Origin: a virus
Direction: 5' to 3' (one strand)
Length of the DNA stretch: 34,304 bases
IMG/VR virus record: IMGVR_UViG_3300033146_002768
Location: 1 to 34,304 of that record
The first letter of the stretch is position 1, and each line of letters opens with the position of its first letter. Below, one piece after another: positions 1 to 15,792 of the stretch. Position numbers and translations under genes: made by a program. Under the pieces are notes generated by a model, which did not search any database, had not been told where the DNA came from, and saw nothing but the letters and a program-made list of their open reading frames with translations.

Positions 1-408
1 TTTGATGGAGACTGCTGCCTTTTATCTATTATATATAAAAAAGAAGAACAAAATATAAAATGTCATATAAGTAAATTATTAGATAATGAAGAATTTGAAT
101 TTATATCTAAACAAGAAAAAAATAATGGAATTATTGTAACTAAATATAAACCAAAAAATAATATATGTATAGAATCTATAGATCCTAAAACTGGTAATAT
201 TGATAACAAAAAAATATCACAATACAGTAGACATGAAAATATAGAAATGTATAAAATAAAAGATAAGAAAAAACGTTTTGAAACATTTTGGTCTTCTTAT
301 GATCATTCATTAATTATATATGATTCTAATAAAGAACAAATAAGGAAAATGAGTCCCAAAGAAGTATTAGAAAATCCAGATGGTAAATTTTTAATTAGGA
401 AAAAATAA
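1..408 (+). CDS. RNA polymerase beta' N-part fused to split-intein N-half (3' end of gene only)
   Basis: Frame 1 is open from the first base to a TAA at 406-408. Its first four codons read FDGD, matching the end of the universal NADFDGD metal-binding motif of the RNA polymerase beta' subunit. The next codons (from base 13) read CCLLS, and the remaining roughly 131 residues no longer look like polymerase. They look like the N-terminal half of an intein: a Cys at the start and, near the end, a block-B-like stretch SSYDHSLIIY (the TxxH motif with Ser in place of Thr) followed by a KMSPKEVL segment. The identity is supported by the matching intein C-half at 1493-1654 and by beta' resuming where it should. 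The stop is followed directly by the ATG of the HNH gene. The beta' N-terminus lies outside the window. It is uncertain whether the first or second Cys is intein residue 1. Confidence 0.75.
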   Translation, partial: FDGDCCLLSIIYKKEEQNIKCHISKLLDNEEFEFISKQEKNNGIIVTKYKPKNNICIESIDPKTGNIDNKKISQYSRHENIEMYKIKDKKKRFETFWSSYDHSLIIYDSNKEQIRKMSPKEVLENPDGKFLIRKK

Positions 409-1500
409 ATGAAAAAGTTTGATGTGGAAATTGAAAAAATAAAAAAAGATATTTTATCTGGATTAGAATTTAAAAATATAGTAAAATCTTTTGTTAGAAC
501 TAATAATTTAAACATAGAATTGAAAAAGAGAACAACTTTTTTAGACAACATTTTTTCAAATATTAGAAATATTGATAGATTATGGTTATACATTAATAAT
601 ATTATTAATTATTCACAATTTCCAATATGTGAATATTGTAAAAAAAATAAAGTTAGAATGGAAGTTAATTTTAAAAAAGATATCGGTTTTTCAAAAACTT
701 GTAGTAAAGATTGTGGTATTAAATTAGGTTTATTGAATACAAAATCTCCAGAAGCTATTAAAAAAGCAGAAAAAACTAAAAAGAAAGTTTTAATGGATAA
801 ATATGGCGTTGATCATGTTTCTAAAATATCTGAAGTAAAAATAAAAAAACATAACACAGCTTTAAAAAATTATGGTAGTTTAAAAGCTGCTTATTATGAT
901 ACAGCCAAAAAAACAATTAATGATAAATATAATGTAGATCATGTTTCATTAATTCCTGGAATTAATGAAAAAAAACAAAAAACATCAATAAAACGATATG
1001 GTACTAAATATCCATGGCAATCAGTTAAAGGAAAAGAAAAACAAAAGAACGGGGTTTTAGTAAAATATAACGTTACTAATATTTCAAAATTAGATGAAAT
1101 AAAAGAAAAGAAAAAAGAAACTTATATAAAGCATTATGGAGTTGATAATTACACTAAAACTATAGAATTTATAGAATCAATTAGCGGAGAAAATAATCCT
1201 AATTGGAAAGGTGGTATTTCAAAAAATGAATATTGTGAAATATTTACATTACAAGAGTTTAAAACATTAATTATGGAAAGAGATTTTTGCAAATGTTTGA
1301 ATCCTAGTTGTAATGGGAAATGTAAGAATGATTTAGTTATACATCATATTGATTATAATAAAATGAATTGCAATCTTTTTAATTTAATAACAATTTGTAG
1401 AAGTTGTAATACTATCGCTAATTATGATAGAGAATGGCATAAATCTTGGTATAGTGCTATAATGTTAAAAAGATATAATAAGTGGGGTTTAAATGATTAG
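409..1500 (+). CDS. HNH homing endonuclease lodged between split-intein halves
   Basis: A 363-aa protein with an HNH nuclease domain at its C-terminus: a CLNPSCNGKC zinc-type segment, then VIHHIDYNKMNCNLFNLITIC and CRSCN, the usual HNH pattern of His-His, Asn and a Cys pair. The N-terminal part has a CEYCKK...CSKDC zinc-finger-like segment (about residues 75-105). Next are three or four repeats of about 35 residues of the form KYGVDHVSKISEVKIKK, probably DNA-contacting. A NPNWKGG motif precedes the nuclease domain. The ATG abuts the stop of the intein N-half, and the 3' end overlaps the ATG of the intein C-half by eight bases (1493-1500), so translation is probably coupled. By position it is the mobility enzyme of the split intein in beta'. 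The nuclease assignment is firm. The target site is inferred. Confidence 0.85.
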   Translation: MKKFDVEIEKIKKDILSGLEFKNIVKSFVRTNNLNIELKKRTTFLDNIFSNIRNIDRLWLYINNIINYSQFPICEYCKKNKVRMEVNFKKDIGFSKTCSKDCGIKLGLLNTKSPEAIKKAEKTKKKVLMDKYGVDHVSKISEVKIKKHNTALKNYGSLKAAYYDTAKKTINDKYNVDHVSLIPGINEKKQKTSIKRYGTKYPWQSVKGKEKQKNGVLVKYNVTNISKLDEIKEKKKETYIKHYGVDNYTKTIEFIESISGENNPNWKGGISKNEYCEIFTLQEFKTLIMERDFCKCLNPSCNGKCKNDLVIHHIDYNKMNCNLFNLITICRSCNTIANYDREWHKSWYSAIMLKRYNKWGLND

Positions 1501-1657
1501 TAAAAAAGAACTAATAAAAAATAATATAGAACTAATACCAATTTCTGATTTAAATATTGAATTAGATCCTAATGAAACTATAGCTTATGATTTAACTGTA
1601 GATGATTATTTTACATTTTGTAGTCATGATGGAATTTTTGTACAAGATACTAACTAG
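1493..1657 (+). CDS. Split-intein C-half (beta' intein), ends at TAG out of frame with the extein
   Basis: A short reading frame starting at ATG 1493, inside the end of the HNH gene, encodes 54 residues. The last part, AYDLTVDDYFTFCSHDGIFV followed by QDTN, closely follows the intein C-terminal blocks F and G (consensus like YDLTVEDNHNFVANGIVVHN). The frame then meets TAG at 1655-1657. The beta' sequence resumes in the frame one base further on (AGC at 1656, reading SGTSSGEF). As written, the C-half is therefore not fused to its extein unless there is a +1 shift near 1652-1656 or a one-base error. Two usually conserved His residues (block F and the penultimate position) are absent. That is either natural variation or a sign of loss of function. 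The start is supported by the overlap with the HNH stop. No clear Shine-Dalgarno was found. Confidence 0.7.
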   Translation: MISKKELIKNNIELIPISDLNIELDPNETIAYDLTVDDYFTFCSHDGIFVQDTN

Positions 1658-2807
1658 CGGCACTTCTTCTGGAGAATTTATTTTTGGTTTATCAAAAGAA
1701 ATGTGGGCTGGTTTATATACAATTTCAAAAGATAAAAAACCTAAAGGGTCTCCAATAGCTGTTTCAAATGAAGATTTATTAACCGCAAAAGATCCTTATA
1801 TAGCTGTTAAATATAGAGGTAATAAAACTACTATGGGGAAAGCTTTAATAAATAGTTGTTTTCCTAAAGATTTAGGTTTTATGGAAGCTCAAGCAACAAA
1901 GAAAACTATTGGAGCAAGAATAGAGCTATCTTATAATAAACATGGTGATGATGTAGTTAAAGCAGTTGTTGATAAATTAAAAGATGTAGGATTTAAATGG
2001 GCTACTATTATGGCTCCTTCTATGAATCTAGATGATTTTGCATTACCTGCATCAGTTATAAAAATTAAAGAAAAATTAAAAACTGCTAATCCAGAAGAAG
2101 CTCAAGATTTGATAGAGCAAGCACAGGTAATATTAGAAAAACATCTAGATAACACTGGGTTTGGAGATTTAGCAAATTCGGGATCAACTAAAGGTTGGGG
2201 TCAGCCAATGCAAATATTAGTTGCAAAGGGTGTTATCGCTGATCCTGATGGTAATGTTTTAGACCCTATATCAGGGTCATTTGCAGATGGTTTATCTAAT
2301 AGAGAATACTTTGACGCATCTCAAGGGGCAAGAAAAGGTATTATTGATAGGGTTATCAATACGGCTGATACTGGTTATATGGCACGTAAATTAGCATATC
2401 TTTTAAACACAGTTGAAGTTGAACGACTTATTAAAGATTGTAGAACTAAAAGAACTGTTGCTATTAAATTAGATGATATTTTAATCAAAAGATTTAAAGG
2501 TAGATATGTAATAAAAAATGGAAAATTAATGTTATTTGATGATGCTAAATTTAAAGTTGGAGATATAGCAAATTTCAGAACTCCTATTTATTGTGAATCA
2601 GAAAAAATATGTCATACTTGTTATGGTAAGTTATTAGAAAGACATCAAACACCTTATGTTGGAATATTAGCAGCACAAATTATTGGGGAACGTGGGACTC
2701 AGTTGATTATGAAAACTTTTCACACGGGTGGTGCCGTATCGCTGATAAAGCGTGATATGCTTGGGGATATCATCAATAATGATCCAATGTCAGGGTTAGA
2801 AAAATAG
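1602..2807 (+). CDS. RNA polymerase beta' subunit, central part (C-extein to trigger loop)
   Basis: The real polymerase sequence begins near 1656 (SGTSSGEFIFGLSKEMWAG). The open frame extends back to an ATG at 1602, but the codons 1602-1655 are intein sequence read in another frame. From FDGD to the GSPIAV segment the spacing matches E. coli beta' almost residue for residue (GEPIIV), which places the intein right after the catalytic loop. Later motifs are diagnostic: NKTTMGKALI, NSGSTKGWGQ, SQGARKGIIDRVINTADTGY, the zinc site formed by Cys in KDCRTK and in YCESEKICHTCYG, and the bridge-helix/trigger-loop segment AAQIIGERGTQL...FHTGGA. The protein stops at MSGLEK, between the two trigger-loop helices, so the jaw and C-terminal domains are missing here and are supplied by 3771-4484. 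As the catalytic subunit part, it should assemble with the N-part and the C-part. Confidence 0.9.
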   Translation: MIILHFVVMMEFLYKILTSGTSSGEFIFGLSKEMWAGLYTISKDKKPKGSPIAVSNEDLLTAKDPYIAVKYRGNKTTMGKALINSCFPKDLGFMEAQATKKTIGARIELSYNKHGDDVVKAVVDKLKDVGFKWATIMAPSMNLDDFALPASVIKIKEKLKTANPEEAQDLIEQAQVILEKHLDNTGFGDLANSGSTKGWGQPMQILVAKGVIADPDGNVLDPISGSFADGLSNREYFDASQGARKGIIDRVINTADTGYMARKLAYLLNTVEVERLIKDCRTKRTVAIKLDDILIKRFKGRYVIKNGKLMLFDDAKFKVGDIANFRTPIYCESEKICHTCYGKLLERHQTPYVGILAAQIIGERGTQLIMKTFHTGGAVSLIKRDMLGDIINNDPMSGLEK

Positions 2808-2860
2808 TTTGAGTTACAAACTATATGAAACAGGGGGTTAATAACTTAATTATTTAGAAT

Positions 2861-2892
2861 ATATTATAAATCAATATAAGGAGATATAATAT
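2861..2892 (+). promoter_or_regulatory. Hairpin with Shine-Dalgarno in the loop and start codon in the stem
   Basis: ATATTATA (2861-2868) and TATAATAT (2885-2892) form a perfect 8-bp inverted repeat. The 16-nt loop holds AAGGAG. The right arm includes the first two bases of the ATG at 2891. The structure could limit translation of the endonuclease fragment. Because the sequence is so AT-rich, chance cannot be ruled out. Confidence 0.35.
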
Positions 2893-3174
2893 GAAATTAG
2901 TTGAATTGTTAGAAAAAAATTAATTGTTTCTAAAGGTAAAAAGTATTTATGTGGTAGTTGTAATAAATTATTTACTAAAATTGGTATCACAAATCATTAT
3001 TTTTATGCCCATACAGAATCTGGAAGACTTAAAAAAGAAGAAATGAGTCAGAAAGCTAAAATTAAAAATAATACACCAGAAATGAAAAAGAAAATTTCAC
3101 AAGAAACATTAAAAGCATATAATGAAGGAACAGCAAGAGAGAATCATTTAAAAATAGTGCAGTCAAAAAAATAA
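2891..3174 (+). pseudogene. Frameshifted homing-endonuclease-like fragment with a C2H2-type finger
   Basis: A well-placed AAGGAG site precedes ATG 2891, but the frame ends after ten codons (MKLVELLEKN, stop). If the run of seven A's at 2913-2919 had one more A, the frame would continue to TAA at 3172. The continued protein contains a CGSCNKLF...NHYFYAH zinc finger of CxxC...HxxxxH type, then a basic helical segment resembling the linker of HNH homing endonucleases. No HNH catalytic domain is present. It is best read as the broken N-terminal piece of an endonuclease gene left at the second break in beta'. A sequencing slip in the homopolymer is the alternative for the frameshift, but the missing nuclease domain would remain. 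Confidence 0.55.
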
Positions 3175-3186
3175 AGAGGTAATATT

Positions 3187-3462
3187 ATGAATAAACAAAT
3201 AATTTCAATATACATTCAAGAAAATTTTAAAGATAAGCTTCCTACAATTAAAAAAATAAAAACAGAACAACGAAGAATTTATGGAGCTATATATAAATAT
3301 ACAGACTTTTTACCAAAATCAACTTCATTTGCTGAGAGAAGTTATTTATTATCACAAGGTCTTGATAGAAGACCAAAGTGTATGAAATGTGATAAATTAT
3401 TAAAGTTTAAAAGTTATAAAACTGGATATGGTAAAGTATGTTCAAAATCTTGTAAAGGATAA
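3187..3462 (+). CDS. Small zinc-finger protein, probable truncated homing-endonuclease N-terminus
   Basis: A 91-aa protein with its own Shine-Dalgarno (AAAGAGG, 3175-3181). The C-terminal third, KCMKCDKLLKF...GYGKVCSKSCKG, resembles the CEYCKK...CSKDC finger in the N-terminal part of the HNH protein at 409-1500, preceded in both by a similar YLLSQGL / LWLYINN helix. It stops right after the finger, where the full-length relative goes on to its repeats and HNH domain. I infer a truncated endonuclease remnant rather than an independent gene, though a small zinc-finger protein cannot be excluded. It lies between beta' pieces, next to another broken fragment. Confidence 0.55.
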   Translation: MNKQIISIYIQENFKDKLPTIKKIKTEQRRIYGAIYKYTDFLPKSTSFAERSYLLSQGLDRRPKCMKCDKLLKFKSYKTGYGKVCSKSCKG

Positions 3463-3466
3463 CTCT

Positions 3467-3760
3467 ATGAAAACCTTAGCTGAAGAATATGTTTTTAAAA
3501 TATTAAAGGAAGCAGTAAAAGTAGGTCAAATAACAAAGACTGGTTTAGTAGCTTCTGCTGTTGGTGGTGGTCTTGTAGGATTAGCTTCTTATTATCTTTA
3601 TAAAAAATATAAACAAGCTCAAGTCAGAGCACAACTGGAAAAAGATCCTTCTAAAAGAAATGAATTAAATGTTAAAGCTAATGATTTAAAACAAAAAGCG
3701 AATAAAACAAAAATGGATGAACAAAAGAAAAAACAATTACAACAACGAATGAAACAATAG
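3467..3760 (+). CDS. Small single-pass membrane protein, unknown function
   Basis: A 97-aa protein. An upstream ATG at 3428 is in frame but lies inside the previous gene, and ATG 3467 starts a better N-terminus (MKTLAEEYVFKILKEAVK). One glycine-rich hydrophobic segment (about residues 24-44, TGLVASAVGGGLVGLASYYL) is followed by a long, highly charged Lys/Gln/Arg-rich helix to the C-terminus, which could form a coiled coil. I do not recognise the family. It sits between two parts of beta', so it could be a cargo gene carried by the elements that broke the polymerase gene, or an original phage gene displaced by rearrangement. Confidence 0.7.
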   Translation: MKTLAEEYVFKILKEAVKVGQITKTGLVASAVGGGLVGLASYYLYKKYKQAQVRAQLEKDPSKRNELNVKANDLKQKANKTKMDEQKKKQLQQRMKQ

Positions 3761-3770
3761 GCAAGTTAAT

Positions 3771-4484
3771 ATGAAAATTAATAATGTTTTAAAACAAATA
3801 GATCAACAGTTAATATCAATTAAACCGATGACAATAACAATTGATCTTTCAAATTATGATAAGACTAGTTTGAAAGAAACTGAAACTAAGATTTGGGTAA
3901 AATCATTATTAGCATCCGCTGAATATGATAATATTGTTTTTGATATAACATTAGATTATGCTCTTGAATTATTTGTATATGATAGAGAAGATATCGGAAA
4001 AGAATATATTAAATTAAAATATGAAGCTAATGCTCCAGTTTTAGAAGTATCTACAGAAGCTGGTGAATCTGCTGTACAAATTGCTTATGTCGAAAGATTG
4101 ATTGGCGGTAGAGAAATACTAAAAGATGCTGCTCATTTATATAGAAAATTATTTGCTGTATATGGTAAATTATCTAATATGGATTCAGTACATTTAGAAA
4201 TTATGTGTTCACAAGTTTTGAGAGATAAAAAGAATATGCAGATTCCTGCTCGATTAGGAAAGAAGTGGGATCCTATATTAGTTAATTTAAAGAAAGTTAT
4301 TTTTTCAGAAGGGTTTGTTAATGGATTAGCTTTTGAAAATATTAATGATGCTATAAAAACAGGTCTAATAACAGAAGAAAAAGGTGAAGCAAGTATTATA
4401 GAGAAAGTAATGACTGGCAGTTTAGTTGATGAAAAACGAGGAAAAAATTCAAGATTAGGTGATAGAGGTTATAAAAATAGATAG
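3771..4484 (+). CDS. RNA polymerase beta' subunit, C-terminal domain as a separate protein
   Basis: A 237-aa protein whose second half matches the C-terminal region of beta'. AAHLYRKLFAVYGKLSNMDS then VHLEIMCSQVLRDKKN corresponds to the bacterial 'VYR.QGV.I.DKHIE.I.RQM' region. The downstream GFVNGLAFENINDAIKTGLI and IIEKVMTGSL correspond to 'SFQETT.VLTEAAI' and 'ENVI.GRLIPAG'. The start lies soon after the trigger-loop region where the previous beta' protein ends, so the two complement each other. The N-terminal 100 residues are divergent and probably form the jaw-side region. Shine-Dalgarno support is modest (TAGGCAAG). It ends in -YKNR just before an HNH gene. The assignment is by recognised conserved residues and order, not by search. 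Confidence 0.75.
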   Translation: MKINNVLKQIDQQLISIKPMTITIDLSNYDKTSLKETETKIWVKSLLASAEYDNIVFDITLDYALELFVYDREDIGKEYIKLKYEANAPVLEVSTEAGESAVQIAYVERLIGGREILKDAAHLYRKLFAVYGKLSNMDSVHLEIMCSQVLRDKKNMQIPARLGKKWDPILVNLKKVIFSEGFVNGLAFENINDAIKTGLITEEKGEASIIEKVMTGSLVDEKRGKNSRLGDRGYKNR

Positions 4485-4492
4485 GATAAATT

Positions 4493-5353
4493 ATGAGTAA
4501 ATATAAAGGAGATATATTATGTAGTTATGGTTGTGGTCATAAAGCTAAATATTTTTTTACATCAACAAAAAAATATTGTTGCTCATCTCATTTTTCTCAA
4601 TGTCCTATTAGAAGAAAACAATCTAAAAACTATATGACTGGTTTAAGAGTTGGTAATAAAAATCCTAGATATGGTGTAAAAATGAGCAATGAATTAAAAG
4701 AAAAAATACGAAAAGGAAATAAAGAAAATAATTATAATCCAAGTATTAAAACTCGAGAAAAAATGGCTATATCAAGTAAATTATCTATTAAGAATATTAA
4801 TATTAAATATAAATTATTTAGTAAAATAGAGAATTTAAGATATAAACCAGCTCATAAAAAAGAAAAAATAATTCAAGTTAGATGTAAATCTAATAATTGT
4901 AATAAATGGTTTACTCCATCTTATATACAATTATATGAAAGAATAAGAAATATTGAAATCAATGAATTAGATAATTCATATTTTTATTGTTCTGAAAAAT
5001 GTAAAGAAGAGTGTCCTTTATATGGAAAGAGAGTTGAAACTTTAATCAAAGAAGATAAAATAAATGTTGGGCATATAGAGGAATCTTGGTATACTTCTCA
5101 AGAATATCAAACATGGAGAGATCAAGTTTTTAAATTAGATAATAGTAAGTGTGTTTGGTGTAATAAAGAAGCTACGATAGCTCATCATATTTTACCTCAA
5201 AAGATTTATCCAAATCTTAGTTTAGATCCTGAGAATGGATTATCATGTTGTCAAAAATGTCATTATAAATATGGACATCGTGATTCTTTATGTAATACTA
5301 ATCATTTAAGTAAATTAATTTGTGATCGTACTTATAGAATTAAAAATAGATAA
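4493..5353 (+). CDS. HNH homing endonuclease with NUMOD3-like repeats
   Basis: A 286-aa protein. The N-terminus has a CSYGCGHKAKY...CCSSH zinc-finger-like motif. The middle has NUMOD3-type segments (NPRYGVKMSNELKEKIRKG). A second Cys set (CKSNNCNKWF...FYCSEKCKEEC) follows, then an HNH domain: KCVWCNKEATIAHHILPQ, DPENGLSCCQKCHYKYGH. It is a close relative of the protein at 13276-14370, with the same layout and similar ends. It begins eight bases after the beta' C-terminal gene. Both that gene and this one end in -KNR-stop within an identical 12-base string (4472-4483 and 5341-5352), a hint of insertion exactly at a gene end. It is probably a free-standing homing endonuclease. Confidence 0.85.
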   Translation: MSKYKGDILCSYGCGHKAKYFFTSTKKYCCSSHFSQCPIRRKQSKNYMTGLRVGNKNPRYGVKMSNELKEKIRKGNKENNYNPSIKTREKMAISSKLSIKNINIKYKLFSKIENLRYKPAHKKEKIIQVRCKSNNCNKWFTPSYIQLYERIRNIEINELDNSYFYCSEKCKEECPLYGKRVETLIKEDKINVGHIEESWYTSQEYQTWRDQVFKLDNSKCVWCNKEATIAHHILPQKIYPNLSLDPENGLSCCQKCHYKYGHRDSLCNTNHLSKLICDRTYRIKNR

Positions 5354-5367
5354 TAGGAGAAATTTGA

Positions 5368-6738
5368 ATGCTTGACGTGACATATATTTATACAAGCTAT
5401 ACGAATATTACAGATTTAAAAAAAGATAGATTAGATGCTTGGCCATCTACACCAAGAGTAATGACAAATATTTTAAATAATCAAAAAGATTTACGAGTAA
5501 CATATAGTACAATACCTTTACTTATATCATTAGCTTATATTGAATATTGTAAAAATGAACTAAATCCTAATTGGACTAAATTTCATTATGAGTTTTGTAA
5601 AGAGATAGTTAAAACTATTAAAACTGAATACGTATTATTAACTTTAGGTAATCCTTGGGAAATAATATTTTTAGGGATTTTAATAGATGCGGGCAAAAAA
5701 GTAGTTGTTGGCGGACCGTATGTAAAATCATATGATTTAGAAATTTTAAGAGAGATGTTTAAAGTAAATGGTTGTAAGAATCTTGATAATGTTATAATAG
5801 TTCGACCTTTTATTAATAAAGATGTTAATATTTATAATATTATTCAACTTTGGAAAGATATTGATATGGACATAGTATATGATTGCTCTGATATATATCT
5901 AACTGAATCTGATTTTTATTTATCATTTAAACCAACATTTAAAAATCATAAAATTCTTTTTAAACGATTTAGTATAATATCTCAAACAACATGTGGGTGG
6001 GGTAAATGCTCATTTTGTAAATATTCAGTTAAAACACATTCTAAAAAATTTATAAATTCTAAAAATTTTGAAGAAGTTATGAGAAATACTTTTAATTTAA
6101 TGAAACAAGTTGGTGCTACTAAACTTAATATAATGGATCCAGAGTTTTATTTTACTAAAACTAATTGTAAAATATTGAATGAGTTTAGAAAAAAAGGATA
6201 TAAAGTAATCTTTTTTGTTAGTGTAAGACAATTACTTAATGATGATTTCTTTGATAATATATTTATAAAATATTCAGATGTTATACAATCAATATTAATT
6301 GGGTTTGAATGTATTGAAGATTTTAGTTTAAAGTTATTAAATAAAGGTGTAAATGAAAACGATACATTTAAAATAATACAAAAGATTTGTAATTATAAAT
6401 CAGATGTAGGAATATTAGCTCTTTTTATGTCCAATCTTGCTACTAATAATAAAGATGCTGTAACTAAGAATTACAAAAATATTAAGAAATTTAAAGATAT
6501 GTGTAATCAAAATGATATTAAATATAATTTTTCTTTTTCTGAATTTAATGCAAATCCTTTATCTGAGTATACTACAAATAATCCTTATTTAAGATTAAAA
6601 TATCATCCATTATATGTATTGAATGATTATGATCGAGTTGATGAAAACGGAAACATATTTTCAAAACATGATTCAAAAATTATTGATAGTGAATTATATA
6701 ATGAAATAATAGAATTTTTTAGATGGGGTAATATATAA
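5368..6738 (+). CDS. Radical SAM protein with B12-binding-like N-terminal domain, copy 1
   Basis: 456 aa. The N-terminal part (about 1-180) looks like the Rossmann-type domain of B12-binding radical SAM enzymes: VLLTLGNPWE then GKKVVVGGPYVKSY. The radical SAM cluster motif is CGWGKCSFC at Cys209, Cys214 and Cys217, a Cx4Cx2C spacing instead of the usual Cx3Cx2C. Downstream, LNIMDPEFYF and LIGFECIEDFSLKLLNKGVN match the later strands of radical SAM barrels (the 'IG.ES..D..L..MNKG' pattern). Chemistry and substrate are unknown, and no RiPP precursor or known partner is seen nearby. The start has AGGAG (5355-5359). It is followed without a gap by a paralogue. Codons are very A/T-rich compared with rpoB, a possible sign of separate acquisition. 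Confidence 0.72.
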   Translation: MLDVTYIYTSYTNITDLKKDRLDAWPSTPRVMTNILNNQKDLRVTYSTIPLLISLAYIEYCKNELNPNWTKFHYEFCKEIVKTIKTEYVLLTLGNPWEIIFLGILIDAGKKVVVGGPYVKSYDLEILREMFKVNGCKNLDNVIIVRPFINKDVNIYNIIQLWKDIDMDIVYDCSDIYLTESDFYLSFKPTFKNHKILFKRFSIISQTTCGWGKCSFCKYSVKTHSKKFINSKNFEEVMRNTFNLMKQVGATKLNIMDPEFYFTKTNCKILNEFRKKGYKVIFFVSVRQLLNDDFFDNIFIKYSDVIQSILIGFECIEDFSLKLLNKGVNENDTFKIIQKICNYKSDVGILALFMSNLATNNKDAVTKNYKNIKKFKDMCNQNDIKYNFSFSEFNANPLSEYTTNNPYLRLKYHPLYVLNDYDRVDENGNIFSKHDSKIIDSELYNEIIEFFRWGNI

Positions 6739-8070
6739 ATGTTAGATATTACATATGTATATACTGCATTTTCAAGATATTTACCAAATAAATCTAGTAG
6801 ATCTTATCCTCTTACAACAAGAGTTATGACTAAGATTTTAAATAATCAAAAAAAATTAAATGTTATATATAGTGATATACCTTTATTAGCAATATTAACA
6901 TATTTAAAATATAAATCTACTTATGAAATATTTTATAAAAATTTTAGAAAAGATGCAATAAAAACTATAAATACTAAACATGTTTTATTGACATTAGGAA
7001 CATCTTATGATTTATTATTTGGAGTTGATTTATTAAATTCTGGTTTTAAAGTTATAGTTGGTGGTTCTCTTACAAAAATATATAATATTAAAGAATTAAG
7101 AAAAATATTTAAAACAAATGGTTGTAATAATTTAGATAATTTAATTATTGTTAGACCTTATATAAATAAAGATGTTGATTTATATGAAATAATAATAAAC
7201 AATAAAGATATAGGAATGGAATATAAATATGATATTTCTGATATTTATAATTCTGATGAAGATTTCTATCTAAATTATATTCCTTATTTAAAAAAATATA
7301 ATTATGATTTTACAATAGTATCATCCTTTTTTAATTCAATTTGTACATGGAGTAATTGTAATTTTTGTACTTATAAACAAAAAGATTGTCAAGTTAATTT
7401 TATGAATATGAATAATGTTTATAAAATTGCAGAATCTACAAAAAAAATAATGAATAAATATGATACAAATTGTAATTGTATTTTAGATCCAGATTTTCAG
7501 TTTAATGAAATAAGTGAAACATATTTAAAATTAATGTCTGATGATGGTTATAAAGTTGGAATTATGACTAGTATTAGATCATTAAAAGATAATACATATT
7601 TTGATAGAATATTTAATAATGAAAAAGATTTTTTTGCTATATATATTGGGATTGAAACTTTAGATAATTTTGCTTTAGGATTATTAAATAAAGGTTCAGA
7701 TGTAAATGATTCTATTAAAATTTTTGATAAAATAATCAAAAGAAAAAATAAAAATATTTTAGTTCATTGTTTATTAATGTTAAATTTAGCATCAAAAAAT
7801 AAAGAACATATTATTGAAGGATATAATAAATTAGCTGAAATTAGACTTAAATTTCTAAGAGCTGGGATACAGTTAGAAATATTACCTATTGATTTAGAAT
7901 TATATCCTGAAATTGAATATTCAAATAATAAATTTTTTAAATTATTAACACCTCCTGATAAAATACCTTGTTTATATGAAAGATATGATATAAATGGTAA
8001 AAAAATATTATTTGATAAACAAATAGTAGATAAAAAAATATTTAAATTTGTTAATTATTATAGAAAGTAA
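6739..8070 (+). CDS. Radical SAM protein with B12-binding-like N-terminal domain, copy 2
   Basis: 443 aa, starting on the base after the stop of copy 1 and clearly paralogous to it: both start MLD(V/I)TY(I/V)YT, both have RVMT(N/K)ILNNQK, LLTLG, V(V/I)VGG, and NGC(K/N)NLDN(V/L)IIVRP. The cluster motif is CTWSNCNFC at Cys202, Cys207 and Cys210, again Cx4Cx2C. The later barrel motif IGIETLDNFALGLLNKGSD is well kept. The two proteins have diverged strongly outside the motifs, so they may act on different substrates or as a heterodimer (inference). Translation is probably coupled to copy 1, since only a weak GGGG is seen upstream. The base composition is among the most AT-rich in the window. Confidence 0.72.
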   Translation: MLDITYVYTAFSRYLPNKSSRSYPLTTRVMTKILNNQKKLNVIYSDIPLLAILTYLKYKSTYEIFYKNFRKDAIKTINTKHVLLTLGTSYDLLFGVDLLNSGFKVIVGGSLTKIYNIKELRKIFKTNGCNNLDNLIIVRPYINKDVDLYEIIINNKDIGMEYKYDISDIYNSDEDFYLNYIPYLKKYNYDFTIVSSFFNSICTWSNCNFCTYKQKDCQVNFMNMNNVYKIAESTKKIMNKYDTNCNCILDPDFQFNEISETYLKLMSDDGYKVGIMTSIRSLKDNTYFDRIFNNEKDFFAIYIGIETLDNFALGLLNKGSDVNDSIKIFDKIIKRKNKNILVHCLLMLNLASKNKEHIIEGYNKLAEIRLKFLRAGIQLEILPIDLELYPEIEYSNNKFFKLLTPPDKIPCLYERYDINGKKILFDKQIVDKKIFKFVNYYRK

Positions 8071-8083
8071 AAGGAATAATATC

Positions 8084-8773
8084 ATGACTACTTTAGAAAT
8101 GCAATATGATTTAAATAATATTATGAATGAATCTAATTATGATGAATTGTTAGAAATTTATAATTCCATAACTAATAATTCTATTTTAACAGAAGGAATT
8201 GCTTCTATTCCTATGAATAAGGCAAAACAAATGTTGAAGAAAATTTCTTCATTTAAAAATCCAAAACAAATGGAATCATTTATTAAATCTAATAAAAAAT
8301 TTGTTAAATCAGAAAAAGATTTAAACGTTAATGTAAAAAAATTAGCTAAGAAATTAAATTATACAGACGCTGAAGTTCAAGCTTCAAGAGTTAGTATTAT
8401 GAAATCTTTAGCTTTAATTTCTCAATTTGCAGGATTAGCTTCATTATTAGGGATTCCTTTAATTATTATTATTATGTTAATTGCAGCAGCTAAAGGTAAA
8501 TCACTATCAGAAGTAACAGATCAAATTTTAGACGATATTAAAGTATCAATTAGAAAAGATGTTAAAGGTCCATACGAAACAAGTATTCAAAATATTATAT
8601 GGGGATTGATTATTTATATAGGTAGTTTGATTGTTATGTTATTAGGTGGAGCTTTAGCTGTTGATGCTATAGTGGCAATAGGAGCTATTGGATTTCTTGT
8701 TGGTTTAATTTTGTTAATTATTTCTGTTATTTCATTTATGTGGACTTTTGTTACAACTCCACTTCGTGACTAA
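8084..8773 (+). CDS. Multi-pass membrane protein, unknown function
   Basis: 229 aa. ATG 8084 with AAAGGAATA upstream is preferred over the in-frame ATG 8048, which lies inside the previous gene. The N-terminal half is soluble and helical, with charged Lys/Asn-rich segments. The C-terminal half holds at least three hydrophobic segments: around residues 104-125 (LALISQFAGLASLLGIPLII), about 165-190 (IIWGLIIYIGSLIVMLLGGA) and about 195-222. I do not recognise a family. It sits between the radical SAM pair and the nuclease/rpoB genes. It could be an internal virion or inner-membrane protein, but nothing in the sequence decides this. Confidence 0.75.
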   Translation: MTTLEMQYDLNNIMNESNYDELLEIYNSITNNSILTEGIASIPMNKAKQMLKKISSFKNPKQMESFIKSNKKFVKSEKDLNVNVKKLAKKLNYTDAEVQASRVSIMKSLALISQFAGLASLLGIPLIIIIMLIAAAKGKSLSEVTDQILDDIKVSIRKDVKGPYETSIQNIIWGLIIYIGSLIVMLLGGALAVDAIVAIGAIGFLVGLILLIISVISFMWTFVTTPLRD

Positions 8774-8786
8774 AAAGAGGTAAAAA

Positions 8787-9140
8787 ATGTATAATTATAA
8801 AGCAATAATTACAAGAGTTGTTGATGGTGATACTTATGATGCTGAAATAGATTTAGGGTTTAATATAAAAGTTAAACAAAGACTAAGATTAAAAGATGTT
8901 GATACTCCTGAAACATGGAGACCTAAAACTGAATCAGAGAGAGCACATGGAATGAAAGCATCTCAATATGTAATGGAATTAATTGAAGGTCAACAAGTAA
9001 CATTAACTTCAGTTAAATCAGCAGTATATTCAAGATATGAAGCATACATTGAAATTAAAGGATATGATTTAGGAACATTAATTACAGAACATGGATTTAC
9101 TAAATTAGATAAATACGAGGATATAAATGATTCAATTTAA
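8787..9140 (+). CDS. Staphylococcal-nuclease-like (thermonuclease) domain protein
   Basis: 117 aa, a minimal SNase-fold protein. The family signature is clear: VVDGDTYDAEIDLGF, QRLRLKDVDTPETW (Arg, Asp and Glu of the Ca2+/catalytic site), and a third-position Arg in YSRYEAYI. The family cleaves DNA or RNA with Ca2+. There is no signal peptide, so it would act inside the cell, perhaps in degrading host nucleic acid (inference). Shine-Dalgarno AAAAAGAGG lies just upstream. The 3' end overlaps the start of rpoB by 14 bases, so the two genes are likely co-translated. The C-terminus is short relative to full-length nucleases (about 150 aa), so activity is not assured. Confidence 0.82.
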   Translation: MYNYKAIITRVVDGDTYDAEIDLGFNIKVKQRLRLKDVDTPETWRPKTESERAHGMKASQYVMELIEGQQVTLTSVKSAVYSRYEAYIEIKGYDLGTLITEHGFTKLDKYEDINDSI

Positions 9141-12100
9141 AGCGTTAAAACCGTATGCACATGTTGTTAATGGAGTACGATTTCCTCAAAGTATGAAGAC
9201 TCCATTTATAATAGTTTACTTTAGTGAAAATTCATCGCTGATGGATGATTATTCAAAGTTGAATATGGTTCGTGTTGATGCTAAAAAAGTTATTATTCCT
9301 AAAACTAAAATTCCATTTAGCTTTATTACTCCAGAAACTAAAAAAGCATATAAAGCTCATGGATTAGTTGCTTCTAGTTCGACACAAGCAATACCTCAAG
9401 GACAGAATTTAATATATGATCTTAGTTTATTCTTACAAACTCTTGAGGATGCGTATAAAAGTAAAAACTATAGAGCAAGAAGTGGATTTATATTAAAAAA
9501 TTTAATAAGTAAGATATTTAATTCATTCCCAAGTAACTATCAAAAAGTATTTATGTATTCAGTTGATGCTACTAAAGAGGTTAATAAATATATAGATAGA
9601 AAGATATTCCCTTTTATATTAGAAATGAAAAAGAATAATATTTATTATGATCATTTTGTAATGAATACTATTAGCGGATCTTCATCAAGATATAGATTAC
9701 TAATGAAAGACAGATCACTTAATTTCAATAAAGCTAATCTATATTTAAAAAATATTAAAATAATTGATACAGATGAAGAAGTTGATAATAAAGTGGAGGT
9801 AGCATCTAATACAGTTGTTAAGAAAATATCAGATGAAATTAGATCTTCTAATAAAAAAGTATTCAAACAATCCATTCAGAAATTTCTTGAAAAGAATCCT
9901 AAAGCGTTGGAAAAAACACATAATGGAGAAATTTCTGATAATGAGGCTAAAGATATTGCTATAGCATCTGTTCTATATAGATCAACTGGTGATATGAATA
10001 AAGCTAAAATAACAGCTAAAAATATTCCTGGTATCAAAAAATCTATTGGGTTAAAAGTTATTGATAAAAGGTTCGCTGATGAATTACTTCAACCTCAAAA
10101 AACAGAATTAACATCTGAAAAGTTAGTTGTTCAAATGCATAATGTTGCTAAAGCTGTAGGTAATAAATCTCCAGAGCATATTTTTGAAAAAAGAAAAATT
10201 GATTTTGAGACTAATTTAAAGAAAGATATTGTTAATTCATTTAAAGTATTAGAAACTAAAGGTGTTCCTTTAAAGTTTAAAAGTGTTAAAGTTATTAAAA
10301 AAGCAGTTAGACATGGTGATTTATCTCCATCAGATATTAGTACTATTCATGTAACTTTAGTTGATAAATTTAATAGAACACATACTGTATTAATTGATGT
10401 ACCAAATGTATCGGATGATGGAACATTTAAAATTAATGGTAAAAAGAAATGTCTTATTAATCAATTAGTACTATGTCCTATAACATTTCCTAAAAAATTA
10501 GATAGTAAATTTGAAAGTTCTTATTCAACATTCCATATTTGGAGTAAGAGAACTAAGAGGGAACAATATTTAGAAGCTTATATTGGATCGTATAAAGTCC
10601 CATTATTAGTATTGTTATCTTTCTCATTTGGGTTTAAAGAGACGTTAAAATTATATGATATTAGGTATAAGTTAACCGATATAAAACCTGATAAAGAGGT
10701 CAAATGGACTGTTAAAGTTGATGATAACAACTGGTTATTATTTGATAATATAAACAATAAATTAAAAGAAGAGATAATTCAATCTCTTATTCATACCGAT
10801 TTATATTCATATAAAGATAAAATAAAAAACGGTGAATTATTTAGCCATGAATATTTTAATAACTTAATTATTAAAATGTCAGGTCGTATTAATTCAACAT
10901 TCTTAATTCAATCAAACCTTGAAAACATTGTTGATCCTGTTGCTAAGCAAGTATTAATTAATAAACAACTACCAAGTGATTTATATTTAATTATGCAATA
11001 TATGTCAACTAAGGTTGTTGAAGGATATACTCAAAAGAGAAATGATATATCTAATCAAAGAATAAGAAACTCTGAGGTTATAGTTCATTTAGCTCAAAAA
11101 CAAATTCTAGCAGCTCATACTGAGTATAAAGAGCAAGTGTTATCTGGTAATAAAAAAGCTATTTTTGATATTTCTCAAACTAAAGTATTAAGTGATTTTA
11201 TTAACTCTGAAATTGTTGCTGATATGGAGTATGCAAATCCTATTGAGGAAATGGCTACCAAAACAAGAGTATCACCAGTAGGTAAAGCAGTAGGTGGGAT
11301 TCCTGATAAACAAGCTATCCAAAATGAGGGTAGAAATGTACATGATTCTATGTTTGGAAATATTGATACCCTTGATACACCAGAAGGTGAAAATGTTGGT
11401 ATTGTACAGCAGTTAACAGTTGATGCTTTTATAACATCAGCAAGGGGTATCATTCAAACTAAAGATAAAAAAGAAGGCGAAAACTCTGGTTTGTTATCTA
11501 CAACAGCTGCTCAAATTCCATTTGTTGAAAATAATGATGGTAACAGAGTTATGTTTGGGTGTAGTCAAATGAGACAGGCAGTCCCTTTAAGAAATCCAGA
11601 GACTCCAATGATTCAATCAGGGTATGAATCTATATTAACAAGCGTTTTATCAAGTGATTTTATTAAAAAAGCACCATGTAATGGAAAAGTAACAAGAGTT
11701 ACAAAAGATGAAATATCTATTAAATGCACCAGTGGCGGTAATAAAGTAATCCCAATCATTCCAGTTCATCTAAGATCAGGTTCTGGTAAAGATACATTGA
11801 GTGTTTTTAAACCAACAGTTAAACCTGGTAGTGTTGTAAAAACTAAACAAATTATAGCAGAAGGGTCTTGTATAACTGGTGGTTCTATTGCAACAGGAAG
11901 AAGTATGTGTGTTGCTTTAATGCCTTATAAAGGATTTAACTTTGAAGATGGTATTGTTATATCTGAAAGAATAGTTCGTGAAGGTGTTTTAAATTCATTA
12001 CATGGTATTGTTGAAGAAATTGAAATAGGTAAAGATGATAGAGTTGTATTTATAAATGAACTTGGTAAAGAAACTATTAAAGGTGAACCGCTTATAAGAA

Positions 12101-13227
12101 AAAGTATCGGTGAAATTGAGCAGCTAATTGGGTTTGAAGAAGAGGAAGAAGGAATTGAAGTTGTTTCTGGACATATGATTAAAAAATCTCCTGGTGGTAA
12201 AATTGTTGATATAGAAGTATTTAATAATTTAAAAGAAGGTAAATTTCCTGAACTTGATGCTTTATCTAAAAAGACTAGAAAAAGATATGGATTACTTCCT
12301 AAAGAAAAGTTTTCACAAAAAGGAGAAGTAATTAAAGGCATATTAATAAAATTCAAACTTGAACAAGAACTTCCTGTTGGTATTGGGGATAAATTAACTA
12401 ATAGACATGGAGCGAAAGGTATTGTTTCCTTAATTGAAAAAGATGAATTAATGCCAAGAACTTCAACTGGAGATCAAGTAGATATTATTTTAAACCCAAT
12501 TGGAGTAGTTGGACGTATGAATGTTGGTCAGTTATATGAATTATATACTGGACTAATCGCTAAAGAACTTGGTAGACAAATAATAAAACTTAATAATAAA
12601 GTTAAGATCGGTACATTATTAAATAAAGTTTTACCTCTTTTAGATATGACAAAAAATAAAGAGTTTAGTAAAACTTTTATTGCTAAATTTAGAGCTATGT
12701 CTGATTCTAAATTTAAATTATTTGTTAAACAAGTTAAAGATTCTGATTCATATACTATTATTATACCACCATTTAAAGCGCCTGCATATAAAGAGATATT
12801 AGCTGCATTGAAGGTTCTTGGTTTAAAAGGTGGATATAATTTAATGTTGCCAGAGTTTAATACAAGAACAAAGAGTAAAGTTCCATTAGGTTATATGTAT
12901 ATATTAAAATTAGAACATATAGCGAAAGACAAGTTGCACGCTCGTTCTACTGGTCCGGTTACTAGTAAAACTTTTCAGCCAACAGCTGGGAAAAAAAGAG
13001 AGGGTGGACAGAGAATGGGAGAACTTGATACTTACTCATTTATAAGCTATAATTGTCCAAACTTACTAGCAGAATTTTTTGGTCCTTTGTCTGATGATCA
13101 TATTACAAAAAATGAAATTTTATCAGATATTATACAAACAGGAGCCGCTAAATATCGTACTCCAAAAGCATCTCCAGTAAGAGATTTACTTAATAGTTAT
13201 TTTATAAGCTTAATGATATGGCGTTAG
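9127..13227 (+). CDS. rpoB: RNA polymerase beta subunit, single full-length chain
   Basis: 1366 aa, close to the size of bacterial beta. The N-terminal half is divergent. The C-terminal half has the core motifs in order: NPIEEMATKTRVSPVG, NVHDSMFGNIDTLDTPEGEN, GFNFEDGIVISE (about 936-947), GIGDKLTNRHGAKGIVS (about 1086-1102), NPIGVVGRMNVGQ, and HARSTGPVTSK...GGQRMGELDTY. The conserved Lys of GDK and the His of RHG, which line the active centre, are present. The C-terminus ends ASPVRDLLNSYFISLMIWR, where bacterial beta would have the 'ESF.VL..EL.SLG' clamp helix, so it appears nearly complete. The start has GAGG (9117-9120) and overlaps the nuclease gene. The gene order is beta' before beta, the reverse of bacterial rpoBC. 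It is followed by an HNH gene. Confidence 0.95.
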   Translation: MIQFKALKPYAHVVNGVRFPQSMKTPFIIVYFSENSSLMDDYSKLNMVRVDAKKVIIPKTKIPFSFITPETKKAYKAHGLVASSSTQAIPQGQNLIYDLSLFLQTLEDAYKSKNYRARSGFILKNLISKIFNSFPSNYQKVFMYSVDATKEVNKYIDRKIFPFILEMKKNNIYYDHFVMNTISGSSSRYRLLMKDRSLNFNKANLYLKNIKIIDTDEEVDNKVEVASNTVVKKISDEIRSSNKKVFKQSIQKFLEKNPKALEKTHNGEISDNEAKDIAIASVLYRSTGDMNKAKITAKNIPGIKKSIGLKVIDKRFADELLQPQKTELTSEKLVVQMHNVAKAVGNKSPEHIFEKRKIDFETNLKKDIVNSFKVLETKGVPLKFKSVKVIKKAVRHGDLSPSDISTIHVTLVDKFNRTHTVLIDVPNVSDDGTFKINGKKKCLINQLVLCPITFPKKLDSKFESSYSTFHIWSKRTKREQYLEAYIGSYKVPLLVLLSFSFGFKETLKLYDIRYKLTDIKPDKEVKWTVKVDDNNWLLFDNINNKLKEEIIQSLIHTDLYSYKDKIKNGELFSHEYFNNLIIKMSGRINSTFLIQSNLENIVDPVAKQVLINKQLPSDLYLIMQYMSTKVVEGYTQKRNDISNQRIRNSEVIVHLAQKQILAAHTEYKEQVLSGNKKAIFDISQTKVLSDFINSEIVADMEYANPIEEMATKTRVSPVGKAVGGIPDKQAIQNEGRNVHDSMFGNIDTLDTPEGENVGIVQQLTVDAFITSARGIIQTKDKKEGENSGLLSTTAAQIPFVENNDGNRVMFGCSQMRQAVPLRNPETPMIQSGYESILTSVLSSDFIKKAPCNGKVTRVTKDEISIKCTSGGNKVIPIIPVHLRSGSGKDTLSVFKPTVKPGSVVKTKQIIAEGSCITGGSIATGRSMCVALMPYKGFNFEDGIVISERIVREGVLNSLHGIVEEIEIGKDDRVVFINELGKETIKGEPLIRKSIGEIEQLIGFEEEEEGIEVVSGHMIKKSPGGKIVDIEVFNNLKEGKFPELDALSKKTRKRYGLLPKEKFSQKGEVIKGILIKFKLEQELPVGIGDKLTNRHGAKGIVSLIEKDELMPRTSTGDQVDIILNPIGVVGRMNVGQLYELYTGLIAKELGRQIIKLNNKVKIGTLLNKVLPLLDMTKNKEFSKTFIAKFRAMSDSKFKLFVKQVKDSDSYTIIIPPFKAPAYKEILAALKVLGLKGGYNLMLPEFNTRTKSKVPLGYMYILKLEHIAKDKLHARSTGPVTSKTFQPTAGKKREGGQRMGELDTYSFISYNCPNLLAEFFGPLSDDHITKNEILSDIIQTGAAKYRTPKASPVRDLLNSYFISLMIWR

Positions 13228-13236
13228 TAAGAATAT

Positions 13237-13265
13237 TTTTATAATCTAAGTAACAAATTATAAAA
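13237..13265 (+). promoter_or_regulatory. Hairpin just upstream of the HNH gene's ribosome-binding site
   Basis: TTTTATAAT (13237-13245) pairs perfectly with ATTATAAAA (13257-13265) around an 11-nt loop. It ends directly before the GGA of the HNH gene's Shine-Dalgarno (AAAAGGA). It may tune translation of the endonuclease or mark the end of the rpoB message. It is AT-only, so the evidence is modest. Confidence 0.35.
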
Positions 13266-13275
13266 GGATATTATT

Positions 13276-14370
13276 ATGGAAATATGTGAATATGGTTGTG
13301 GTAAGGAAGCAATATATCAATTTAAAAATAAAAAATGGTGTTGTTCAAAAAATGTATCTAAATGTTCTGGTACAATTAATAAACTAAAAAATAGAAAAGT
13401 TTCTGATGAAACTCGAAAAAAACAATCAGCTTCATTAAAAGGTAAACTTCCATGGAACAAAGGAAAAGAATTATCTGAATCACATAAACTTAAAATAGGT
13501 TTAGGTAATAAAGGCAAAACTGTTTCTAAAGAAAGTAAAAAGAAAATGTCAGAATCAATGAAAGGTAAACAAAATAGATTAGGATTTGAATTATCTCAAG
13601 CAACTAAAAATAAAATATCTAATTCAAATAAAGGTAAAATTCCATGGAATTTAGGAAAAAGTCATTCATATGAAACTAGAAAAAAGATAGGATCTAAAAG
13701 TAAAAATAGATTTTGTTCTGATGATACTAGAGAAAAAATGAGATTATCAAAACTTGGTGAAAAAAATCATATGTTTGGAAGGAAACTTTCTAATGATCAA
13801 AAGTTAAAATTATTAGAATCTAATCAATATTCTATTAGAGATATTGAAAAAAAGTTTCCATTATTTTCTAAAATAGAAGAAATGAGATATAATCCAAATA
13901 ATCTTTTAGAGAATGAAATACAAGTACATTGTAAAAACCACAAATGCCAAAATTCAAAAGAACAAGGTGGTTGGTTTACTCCAATGAGATGGCAAATAAC
14001 ACATAGAATTCATAATATTGAAAAGGGTTTAGTTAATGATGGTTTATATTTCTATTGTTCTAACGAATGTAAATATGAATGTCCATTATATCATTCAAAA
14101 ATAAATACAAAAAATAATAAACCATATACACAAGAAGAATATCAAACTTTTAGACAACAAGTATTAAAACGAGAAGATGAAATTTGTGAGTATTGTGGAG
14201 AAAAAGCTACTCATGTTCATCATTCACGTCCTCAGAAATTAGAACCAGGTTTTGTTTTAGATCCTGATTTTGGAATAGCATGTTGTCAAAAGTGTCACTA
14301 TAAATATGGTCATAAAACTGGAACAGAATGTTCTACAGGAAATTTAGCAAATATTGTATGCTCTACTTAA
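13276..14370 (+). CDS. HNH homing endonuclease with several NUMOD3-like repeats
   Basis: 364 aa. It has an N-terminal CEYGCGKEAIY...CCSKN finger-like motif, then at least five NUMOD3-type DNA-binding repeats (for example GKLPWNKGKELSESHKLKIG, GKIPWNLGKSHSYETRKKIG, NHMFGRKLSNDQKLKL). A second Cys set (CKNHKCQN, FYCSNECKYEC) follows. The HNH domain reads CEYCGEKATHVHHSRPQ and DPDFGIACCQKCHYKYGHKT. It is the longest of the HNH genes here and a close relative of 4493-5353, differing mainly in repeat number. It lies right after rpoB, with hairpins at both ends. It is a probable free-standing homing endonuclease that targets the rpoB region (inference). Confidence 0.87.
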   Translation: MEICEYGCGKEAIYQFKNKKWCCSKNVSKCSGTINKLKNRKVSDETRKKQSASLKGKLPWNKGKELSESHKLKIGLGNKGKTVSKESKKKMSESMKGKQNRLGFELSQATKNKISNSNKGKIPWNLGKSHSYETRKKIGSKSKNRFCSDDTREKMRLSKLGEKNHMFGRKLSNDQKLKLLESNQYSIRDIEKKFPLFSKIEEMRYNPNNLLENEIQVHCKNHKCQNSKEQGGWFTPMRWQITHRIHNIEKGLVNDGLYFYCSNECKYECPLYHSKINTKNNKPYTQEEYQTFRQQVLKREDEICEYCGEKATHVHHSRPQKLEPGFVLDPDFGIACCQKCHYKYGHKTGTECSTGNLANIVCST

Positions 14371-14381
14371 TAAAGCAGAGC
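14360..14381 (+). terminator. Terminator-like hairpin over the HNH stop codon
   Basis: GCTCTACTT AATA AAGCAGAGC forms an eight-pair stem with one A/C mismatch and a four-base loop. It spans the HNH gene's stop codon and is followed by TTAATTAATAAT. The U-tract is poor, so it may be a weak terminator or an mRNA 3'-end stabiliser. Confidence 0.5.
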
Positions 14382-14415
14382 TTAATTAATAATATATATA
14401 GAATGGAGAAGAACA

Positions 14416-14757
14416 ATGGAAAAGAAAGATGGCGGGAATATAAGTCACTGGCAATTACATCATTTGAAGTTTCCTGAAGAAGATAGAGTAGCATTTGAGT
14501 CTTATAATTCAGAAGTTGATTTTGATAATATAATGATGGTTACTGGAACAGTTGTTAATGAACCAACAGAGAGATGGAACCCTGGCGACCATTTTAGATC
14601 ATCTATGATAATTGAGGTTGATAGAAAAAATAATACTATTGAAACTTTAAATACTATTTATCATTTTGATCCTAAAACAGAAGGTCAAGATACAATTTTT
14701 GATATTGAAACAGGTAATAAAGATATGGGCAATAAAGTTCTTGGTATATTTTATTAA
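14416..14757 (+). CDS. Conserved-looking phage protein, unknown function
   Basis: 113 aa, start supported by GGAGAAG. Acidic and beta-rich by eye (IMMVTGTVVNEPTERWNPGD, SSMIIEVDRKNNTIETLNT). It has no Cys motif, signal peptide or membrane segment. I do not recognise the family. It starts a tight run of three small genes (14416-15613) placed after the HNH insertion and before the hairpin-rich spacer. Before the HNH gene entered, these would have directly followed rpoB, so a role linked to transcription is possible but unproven. Confidence 0.7.
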   Translation: MEKKDGGNISHWQLHHLKFPEEDRVAFESYNSEVDFDNIMMVTGTVVNEPTERWNPGDHFRSSMIIEVDRKNNTIETLNTIYHFDPKTEGQDTIFDIETGNKDMGNKVLGIFY

Positions 14758-14765
14758 GGAGTATT

Positions 14766-15353
14766 ATGGATAATCTTCAAGTATTAGCAGGATCATCATT
14801 ACCTTTACCAGAAGATGATGATCCCAACCAAAATAATTTAAATTATGAAGCTTCTATTGAATATGATGGAATGGAAGTTGTTTCTGCTATTGGTACGTCA
14901 GAATTTAAAGAAATTTATATGTTATTTATAAATGGATTAAAACAAATGGCAATTGTCGACCAAAGAAGATTATGTTTAGATATTTTAGAAAAAGTTAAAG
15001 AAGTTTATGAATATGAATTTCTTCCTCACCCAGAATTAGAACATCAACTAAATATGAATAATGTATATGATTTGATAAAATTTCTCAATTATGATTATAC
15101 TGATTTCTTTGGAGATGTTTGGATGTATCAAAGAGGTATTAATTTAAAGACCATAAATGTAGAAAGTTATTGCAAACGTAATTCTGATTTAATAATAACA
15201 GAAGTTGAAGACCAGTTAAATTCACGAGATTTATCTGAGATGGTTTCTTTATTCCTTAGAACATATAATAAAGACAATCTTATAGAGTGGTTTATTGAAG
15301 CTACTGAAAAACAGAAAATGTTAATTTATTTAAGAATAATGGAGGAAAGCTAA
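14766..15353 (+). CDS. Acidic helical protein, unknown function
   Basis: 195 aa, with AAGGAG directly upstream of the ATG. The N-terminal 30 residues are low-complexity and acidic (LPLPEDDDPNQNN). The rest is mostly helical with many Leu/Glu/Asp and an amphipathic C-terminus ending EKQKMLIYLRIMEES. There are no catalytic motifs or membrane segments. The stop overlaps the next gene's start (TAATGG). The acidic surface would suit an accessory transcription factor or a DNA mimic, but nothing specific supports either. Confidence 0.7.
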   Translation: MDNLQVLAGSSLPLPEDDDPNQNNLNYEASIEYDGMEVVSAIGTSEFKEIYMLFINGLKQMAIVDQRRLCLDILEKVKEVYEYEFLPHPELEHQLNMNNVYDLIKFLNYDYTDFFGDVWMYQRGINLKTINVESYCKRNSDLIITEVEDQLNSRDLSEMVSLFLRTYNKDNLIEWFIEATEKQKMLIYLRIMEES

Positions 15354-15613
15354 TGGCAGAAGAAAAATATACTCTCACGGTTAAGAGAGGAAATATAGAA
15401 TTTACAATTGATAGAAAAGATGTTTTGGCGACAGATGAGACACCAGATGGAATAACTTTTAAATTTCAAGGCGGAGTTATTATGTCGATTGAAGATCTTC
15501 ATATGCCTCAGGATGTCAAACAAAGAGTTGCAATGGCTGATACTGGATTTAAGAAAGGAAATTTGTTATTTAATTTAAATGATTATAGGAACCCAGTATC
15601 ATTAACTCAGTAG
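15353..15613 (+). CDS. Small beta-rich protein, unknown function
   Basis: 86 aa with a strong GAGGAAAG upstream site that lies within the previous gene. Alternating hydrophobic and polar residues (YTLTVKRGNIEFTIDRKDVL, GITFKFQGGVIMSIEDL) suggest a small beta-sandwich or beta-barrel. A short loop DLHMPQDVKQRVAMADTG follows. I do not recognise a family. It is the last gene before a 238-base stretch of hairpins and likely ends the transcription unit. Confidence 0.7.
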   Translation: MAEEKYTLTVKRGNIEFTIDRKDVLATDETPDGITFKFQGGVIMSIEDLHMPQDVKQRVAMADTGFKKGNLLFNLNDYRNPVSLTQ

Positions 15614-15656
15614 GAAAAATAATTTTAAAACTCAAGAACTATATATATTAATATAC

Positions 15657-15683: not shown

Positions 15684-15722
15684 AATTCACTTAAAAACTC
15701 ACTTAATAACACAAAATTTAAC

Positions 15723-15789: not shown

Positions 15790-15792
15790 CGG

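Follow-up and report, generated by a model that had tools for sequence, protein, structure and literature searches.

GenD1 and GenK are cobalamin radical SAM C-methyltransferases of the gentamicin pathway, and GenD1 is a proven case of such an enzyme with a Cx4Cx2C cluster motif (PMC4340712). Among phages, the Campylobacter phages CP220 and CPt10 carry 11 and 12 radical SAM genes, respectively, some of which lie in a cluster that can be exchanged (PMC2853527). Why some phages should carry so much radical chemistry is a question that has stood since these phages were described in 2010 (PMC2853527), and B12-type radical SAM proteins from uncultured phages are already present in the databases. 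A further arrangement relevant here is that of the HEG islands, in which HNH genes bracket exchanged regions near essential phage genes (Barth et al., 2023; PMC10448857). The locus considered below comes from a large uncultured phage (IMG/VR record IMGVR_UViG_3300033146_002768). The window, that is, the whole stretch of DNA that was analysed, comprises 34,304 nucleotides, and its positions are used throughout unless the complete window-phage record (G000, 207 kb) is named.

Two genes on the plus strand make up the pair: rSAM1 (5368–6738, 456 aa) and rSAM2 (6739–8070, 443 aa). The TAA stop codon of the former (6736–6738) directly abuts the ATG of the latter (6739), and an AGGAG sequence resembling a ribosome-binding site lies upstream of rSAM1. 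BLASTP aligns the two proteins over 453 columns at 38% identity (E 2e-89), which confirms the original prediction of tandem, abutting paralogues, at exactly the stated coordinates. That both would carry a Cx4Cx2C motif was also correct: rSAM1 has CGWGKCSFC at 5992–6018 (C209-x4-C214-x2-C217), the predicted [4Fe-4S] cluster site within a radical SAM barrel at residues ~195–390, which follows a B12-domain-like N-terminal Rossmann region (residues ~1–160), and rSAM2 has CTWSNCNFC. Chance open reading frames are excluded, since no stop-free stretch exceeded 155 codons in 500 surrogate sequences generated from this DNA with a first-order Markov model. The AT-richness noticed at first reading was borne out on the scale of the whole record: among the 137 genes that encode 150 aa or more, rSAM2 has the lowest GC content (18.2%, against a mean of 29.0%) and rSAM1 ranks 14 from the lowest (22.5%). 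A search of Rfam with positions 1–16000 of the window gave no matches.

Taken directly, the pair is poorly recognized by existing models and collections. The Pfam Radical_SAM model scores 16.1 bits on rSAM1 (E 0.013) and 21.6 bits on rSAM2 (E 2.7e-4), both under the cut-off of 29.5 bits, and direct searches with the pair or with single proteins gave no matches in IMG/VR, 50,697 phage records, GTDB genomes or PLSDB plasmids (for the genome and plasmid collections, the queries were rSAM1 or the pair). A DNA scan of IMG/VR for CxWxxCxFCxY, filtered by phmmer, nevertheless retrieved at least three relatives in two other uncultured phage contigs: proteins of 513 and 500 aa on L130/L148 and a partial one of 450 aa on L141. 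They are 22–29% identical to rSAM1 and rSAM2 (BLASTP), and the five-sequence alignment spans the full length. The two full-length homologues exceed the Pfam cut-off, with 49.3 and 38.5 bits, and the pair can therefore be taken as real radical SAM proteins. Residues invariant in the five homologues include the glycines GG 115–116, G-x-E 312–314, KG 326–327 and the cysteines of the Cx4Cx2C motif, which are the only invariant cysteines. Follow-up scans with the five-sequence alignment A2, with alignment A3 and with single members found no further phage members, while a scan of genomes with the family matched one distant bacterial protein. The Cx4Cx2C subfamily, absent from the 50,697 phage records, thus has at least three members beyond the pair, found in the present analysis. 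In a six-sequence tree, the 513-aa protein of L148 groups with that of L141 with full support, and rSAM1 and rSAM2 are split from the other phage sequences with support of 86/88; because of this split, their tandem duplication within the lineage of the window phage is likely, as far as sequences can tell.

The cluster motif had been called unusual. It is uncommon, but it is not unique to the pair: as a spacing variant of Cx3Cx2C it is already known, since it is shared by GenD1, by the queuine lyase QueL (6p78, CIWGKCSFC) and by bacterial B12-type radical SAM proteins. Among the nearest cellular matches, which come from 292 genomes of one phylum, 6 of the 12 readable proteins (with L155 included in the search) carry CYWxKCxFC together with GG, and the remainder mostly have the canonical spacing.

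Structure prediction bears on the enzyme class. AlphaFold, run on the five-sequence alignment, returned a Rossmann domain followed by a radical SAM barrel (pLDDT 72.3, pTM 0.72); a two-sequence model of poor quality (pLDDT 53.5) was set aside. Barrel fold and cluster site are both present in the predicted model as judged by AlphaFold and Foldseek, and a prediction lacking either, which had been named beforehand as the refuting result, did not occur. Foldseek against the PDB matched radical SAM enzymes with a probability of 1.00, at moderate TM-scores of 0.46–0.53, and ranked OxsB (E 1.4e-8), MgmA (3.5e-8) and MiaB (1.8e-7) at the top. The best solved matches, OxsB and MgmA, are radical SAM enzymes that use cobalamin; the cobalamin-independent MiaB does equally well in score, and RimO is also high in the list. 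MiaB has a similar layout, but its N-terminal domain carries a second cluster, the cysteines of which are missing from the pair's family. The pair are almost certainly radical SAM enzymes. By predicted fold, with OxsB and MgmA matching over the full length and GG conserved in five of five homologues, a Rossmann domain of B12 type precedes the barrel, and the N-terminal region is very probably such a domain. The original prediction of a B12-like N-terminus accordingly stands on fold comparison, but not on Pfam: the B12-binding model (PF02310) has zero matches in the genome of the window phage, even at E 10. This silence says little, because the same model barely matches the clear B12-type relatives L155 (E 0.036) and L018 (E 5.7e-4). 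The NCBIfam matches of family members are mainly to B12-type families, such as TIGR04072 (4.4e-8) and TIGR03975 (1.3e-7); as all of them lie below the curated cut-offs, membership in TIGR03975, TIGR04072 or TIGR04014 was rejected. From fold and sequence matches, rather than from any single residue, cobalamin binding by rSAM1 and rSAM2 is probable, and C-methylation, suggested by the fold and by the motif precedent of GenD1, is an activity that they may have, to be named with some reserve.

The genes at this locus follow the order β′ C-terminal fragment, HNH, rSAM1, rSAM2, membrane protein, nuclease and β. Placement of the pair between β′ and β, as first described, is thus loosely right, but the HNH, membrane protein and nuclease genes also intervene. 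The HNH homing-type endonuclease gene (4493–5353, plus strand; Pfam HNH E 0.0033, below cut-off) lies just upstream of rSAM1, and its product shares 36% identity with an HNH protein encoded at another place in the sister record. With HNH genes at 409, 4493 and 13276, the polymerase genes are bracketed as in the published HEG islands (PMC10448857). In the sister virus L004, whose β is 84% identical to that of the window and whose β′ has the same C-terminal split, 21 bp separate the β′ C-terminal fragment from the membrane protein, which is followed by nuclease and β. Alignment by blastn showed that the flanks at 3590–4479 and 8143–8349 are conserved and that the intervening block of ~3.6 kb (4485–8083, plus strand), with HNH, rSAM1 and rSAM2, is missing. 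A profile of the pair had no match in the rest of the 203-kb record of L004 or in the 102-kb contig of the more distant L003, in which β′ is unsplit at the C-terminus. From this comparison it can be inferred that HNH and the pair entered as a single block, loss in L004 being the alternative, and the block was perhaps spread by the HNH endonuclease. The β′ gene has further peculiarities. Small open reading frames set off its last part in the window (3187–3760) and in L004 (7554–8218), the same part being fused in L003. At 1–1650 of the window, intein-like N- and C-halves with an HNH gene between them interrupt β′ immediately behind its catalytic FDGD motif, an arrangement resembling a fractured gene with a split intein. 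Beyond the interruption, β′ continues in a different frame and lacks ~20 codons by comparison with L004.

The pair is only a small part of the radical SAM content of this phage. The 207-kb record encodes 17 radical SAM proteins, a count made up of the pair and 15 others recognized by PF04055, some of them below cut-off. The earlier view that such pairs are a rarity among phages does not describe this one, and CP220 and CPt10 have 11 and 12 radical SAM genes (PMC2853527). Twelve of the genes of the window phage form a cluster beside tail genes (G000 151694–173935, minus strand; L013, L014), ~144 kb away from the pair, which also holds two NodU-like carbamoyltransferases, a methyltransferase-like protein and a weak polysaccharide-deacetylase-like protein. 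A triad of its radical SAM proteins, 51–61% conserved in the sister virus, is closest to PapB ranthipeptide maturases and stands beside tail-like proteins with Cys-rich repeats. These tail-like proteins (G000 169070–170218 and 170222–173935) contain repeated CNCNYxC units, adjoin the triad and are conserved in the sister virus as well; the CNCNYxC-repeat protein is a possible candidate for post-translational modification. Elsewhere in the record, five small proteins at G000 61997–65581 start with a DF(V/I)TNSSSxSF-like motif, near a radical SAM gene at 60353–61396. A distinct B12-type radical SAM protein of phages, with a Cx3Cx2C motif, is encoded in the sister virus G002 (L018 814–2322). It separates two genes of the head region that are direct neighbours in the window phage, and represents another radical SAM insertion.

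On L148 and L141, the relatives of the pair adjoin genes for acetyltransferases, aminotransferases and further radical SAM proteins, beyond which come portal and capsid genes. Two proteins of the L148 cassette belong to the pair's family; the cassette also includes a DegT-type aminotransferase, an acetyltransferase, relatives of the G000 radical SAM genes at 151.7, 152.5, 155.9 and 158.5 kb, and relatives of the G000 genes at 161.5 and 162.4 kb. The 152–166 kb part of G000 has a mean GC content of 23.0%, against 29.0% for the record, and the pair is similarly low. The relatives in the L148 cassette and the common low GC tie the pair to this pool of cassettes instead of the polymerase, a link that draws on one contig of 53.7 kb and one of 11 kb.

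On balance, the pair is best explained as tandemly duplicated, phage-borne and divergent radical SAM accessory enzymes of the B12-domain type (COG1032-like), linked to an HNH gene and marked by the motif CxWxxCxFC. Behind this explanation stand the homology of five members, the predicted fold, the invariant cluster cysteines, the absence from the syntenic site of the sister virus and the cassette gene families common to two phages. The block of HNH and pair would have been inserted beside the polymerase genes, perhaps through the endonuclease. At the predicted cluster site, rSAM1 and rSAM2 would bind a [4Fe-4S] cluster and SAM and generate a 5′-deoxyadenosyl radical, which would attack a C–H bond of the substrate; the N-terminal Rossmann domain would hold cobalamin as methyl donor or radical partner, and methyl transfer or rearrangement would follow, as in GenD1 or MgmA. 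The substrate may be a small molecule, sugar or peptide belonging to the accessory cassette of radical SAM proteins, carbamoyltransferases and transferases, rather than RNA polymerase. A wider proposal, offered as rather speculative, is that unrelated large phages swap modular radical SAM sets for making a modified product (a glycan, a lipid or a peptide) that might be attached to the tail proteins of the virion. In such a pathway, the pair would supply one or two steps of C-methylation or rearrangement.

Other explanations differ mainly in what the N-terminal domain and the genomic position are taken to mean. The Rossmann domain might be a relic or a substrate-binding module of a cobalamin-free enzyme for sulfur insertion, epimerisation or cyclisation; the silence of PF02310 and the high Foldseek ranks of MiaB and RimO agree with this, but the top two solved matches and the top sequence families are cobalamin enzymes, so that a cobalamin-free pair seems unlikely. 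Identity with the MiaB/RimO methylthiotransferases was rejected, since the second cluster of that type needs three further N-terminal cysteines and none is invariant in the five homologues. A role on 7-deazaguanine in phage DNA or tRNA, as in nucleobase enzymes related to QueL or archaeosine RaSEA, draws on the best PDB sequence match, QueL 6p78 (E 3.7e-4, CIWGKCSFCDY), on one family member that matches the RaSEA model TIGR01210 at 1.4e-5, and on a PTPS/QueD-like protein encoded at 26867–27292. The significant QueL match, however, covers ~60 residues around the cluster, the QueL chain of 251 residues is too short to accommodate the N-terminal domain of the pair, and the overall predicted fold is of B12 type. 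Genes for QueC, tRNA-guanine transglycosylase (TGT) and GTP cyclohydrolase I were sought in the record and not found, which lowers a nucleoside-modification reading further, to the level of the quite improbable.

The genomic position bears on two more explanations. With an HNH gene adjacent, the pair missing in the sister virus and a GC content among the lowest of the genome, the two genes could be neutral hitchhikers on an HNH element, useless to the phage; this is improbable given that both frames of ~450 codons are intact, that the motifs are kept in both despite 62% divergence and that relatives are retained in operon-like clusters of other phages. Least probable is that the pair modifies the phage RNA polymerase, its RNA or a host transcription factor, as the original prediction proposed from the location in the polymerase gene region. 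The suggested co-occurrence with a split β′ fails in L004, which has the same polymerase and the same C-terminal split but neither pair nor adjoining HNH gene, and the relatives stand in radical SAM cassettes next to capsid genes. The neighbourhood of essential genes is a common landing place for endonuclease genes (PMC10448857), and this explains the site beside the polymerase. Rather than modifying the polymerase, the pair probably serve as additional biosynthetic enzymes.

As accessory enzymes of B12 type, rSAM1 and rSAM2 resemble several known systems, each in part. GenD1 and GenK share with them, besides the motif in GenD1, an inferred layout of Rossmann domain plus barrel, a likeness drawn from published description; GenD1 is larger, at ~77 kDa against the 456 and 443 aa of the pair, and acts on aminoglycosides. 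MgmA, the glutamine C-methylase of methyl-coenzyme M reductase (PDB 9ccb, TIGR04014), is of similar size (417 aa) and is, with OxsB, the best full-length structural match, but identity is 11%, the NCBIfam score is far under cut-off and methyl-coenzyme M reductase is not expected in the window phage. The best NCBIfam matches of the family, TIGR03975 (RiPP maturation radical SAM C-methyltransferases) and TIGR04072 (B12-binding/radical SAM), all score far below curated cut-offs, and no precursor peptide was seen beside the pair. B12 radical SAM proteins of Melainabacteria type (L155, L163, L165, L167 and L173) share CYWxKCxFC, the Rossmann GG and the barrel GxE and NKG; they are ~600 aa long, and their homology to the family covers the barrel only (hhalign probability 95.6%, 171 columns). 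In the HEG islands, blocks close to essential genes are flanked, and probably mobilised, by endonuclease genes (PMC10448857); the likeness of the window block to these islands is one of gene arrangement. The cassette context is of greater interest than the pair alone: cassettes common to different phages are a concrete gene set with which to approach the question raised by the Campylobacter phages, which differ from the window phage in that the Cx4Cx2C family has no match among the 50,697 phage records, and which share with it one SPASM-type radical SAM gene at 37% identity.
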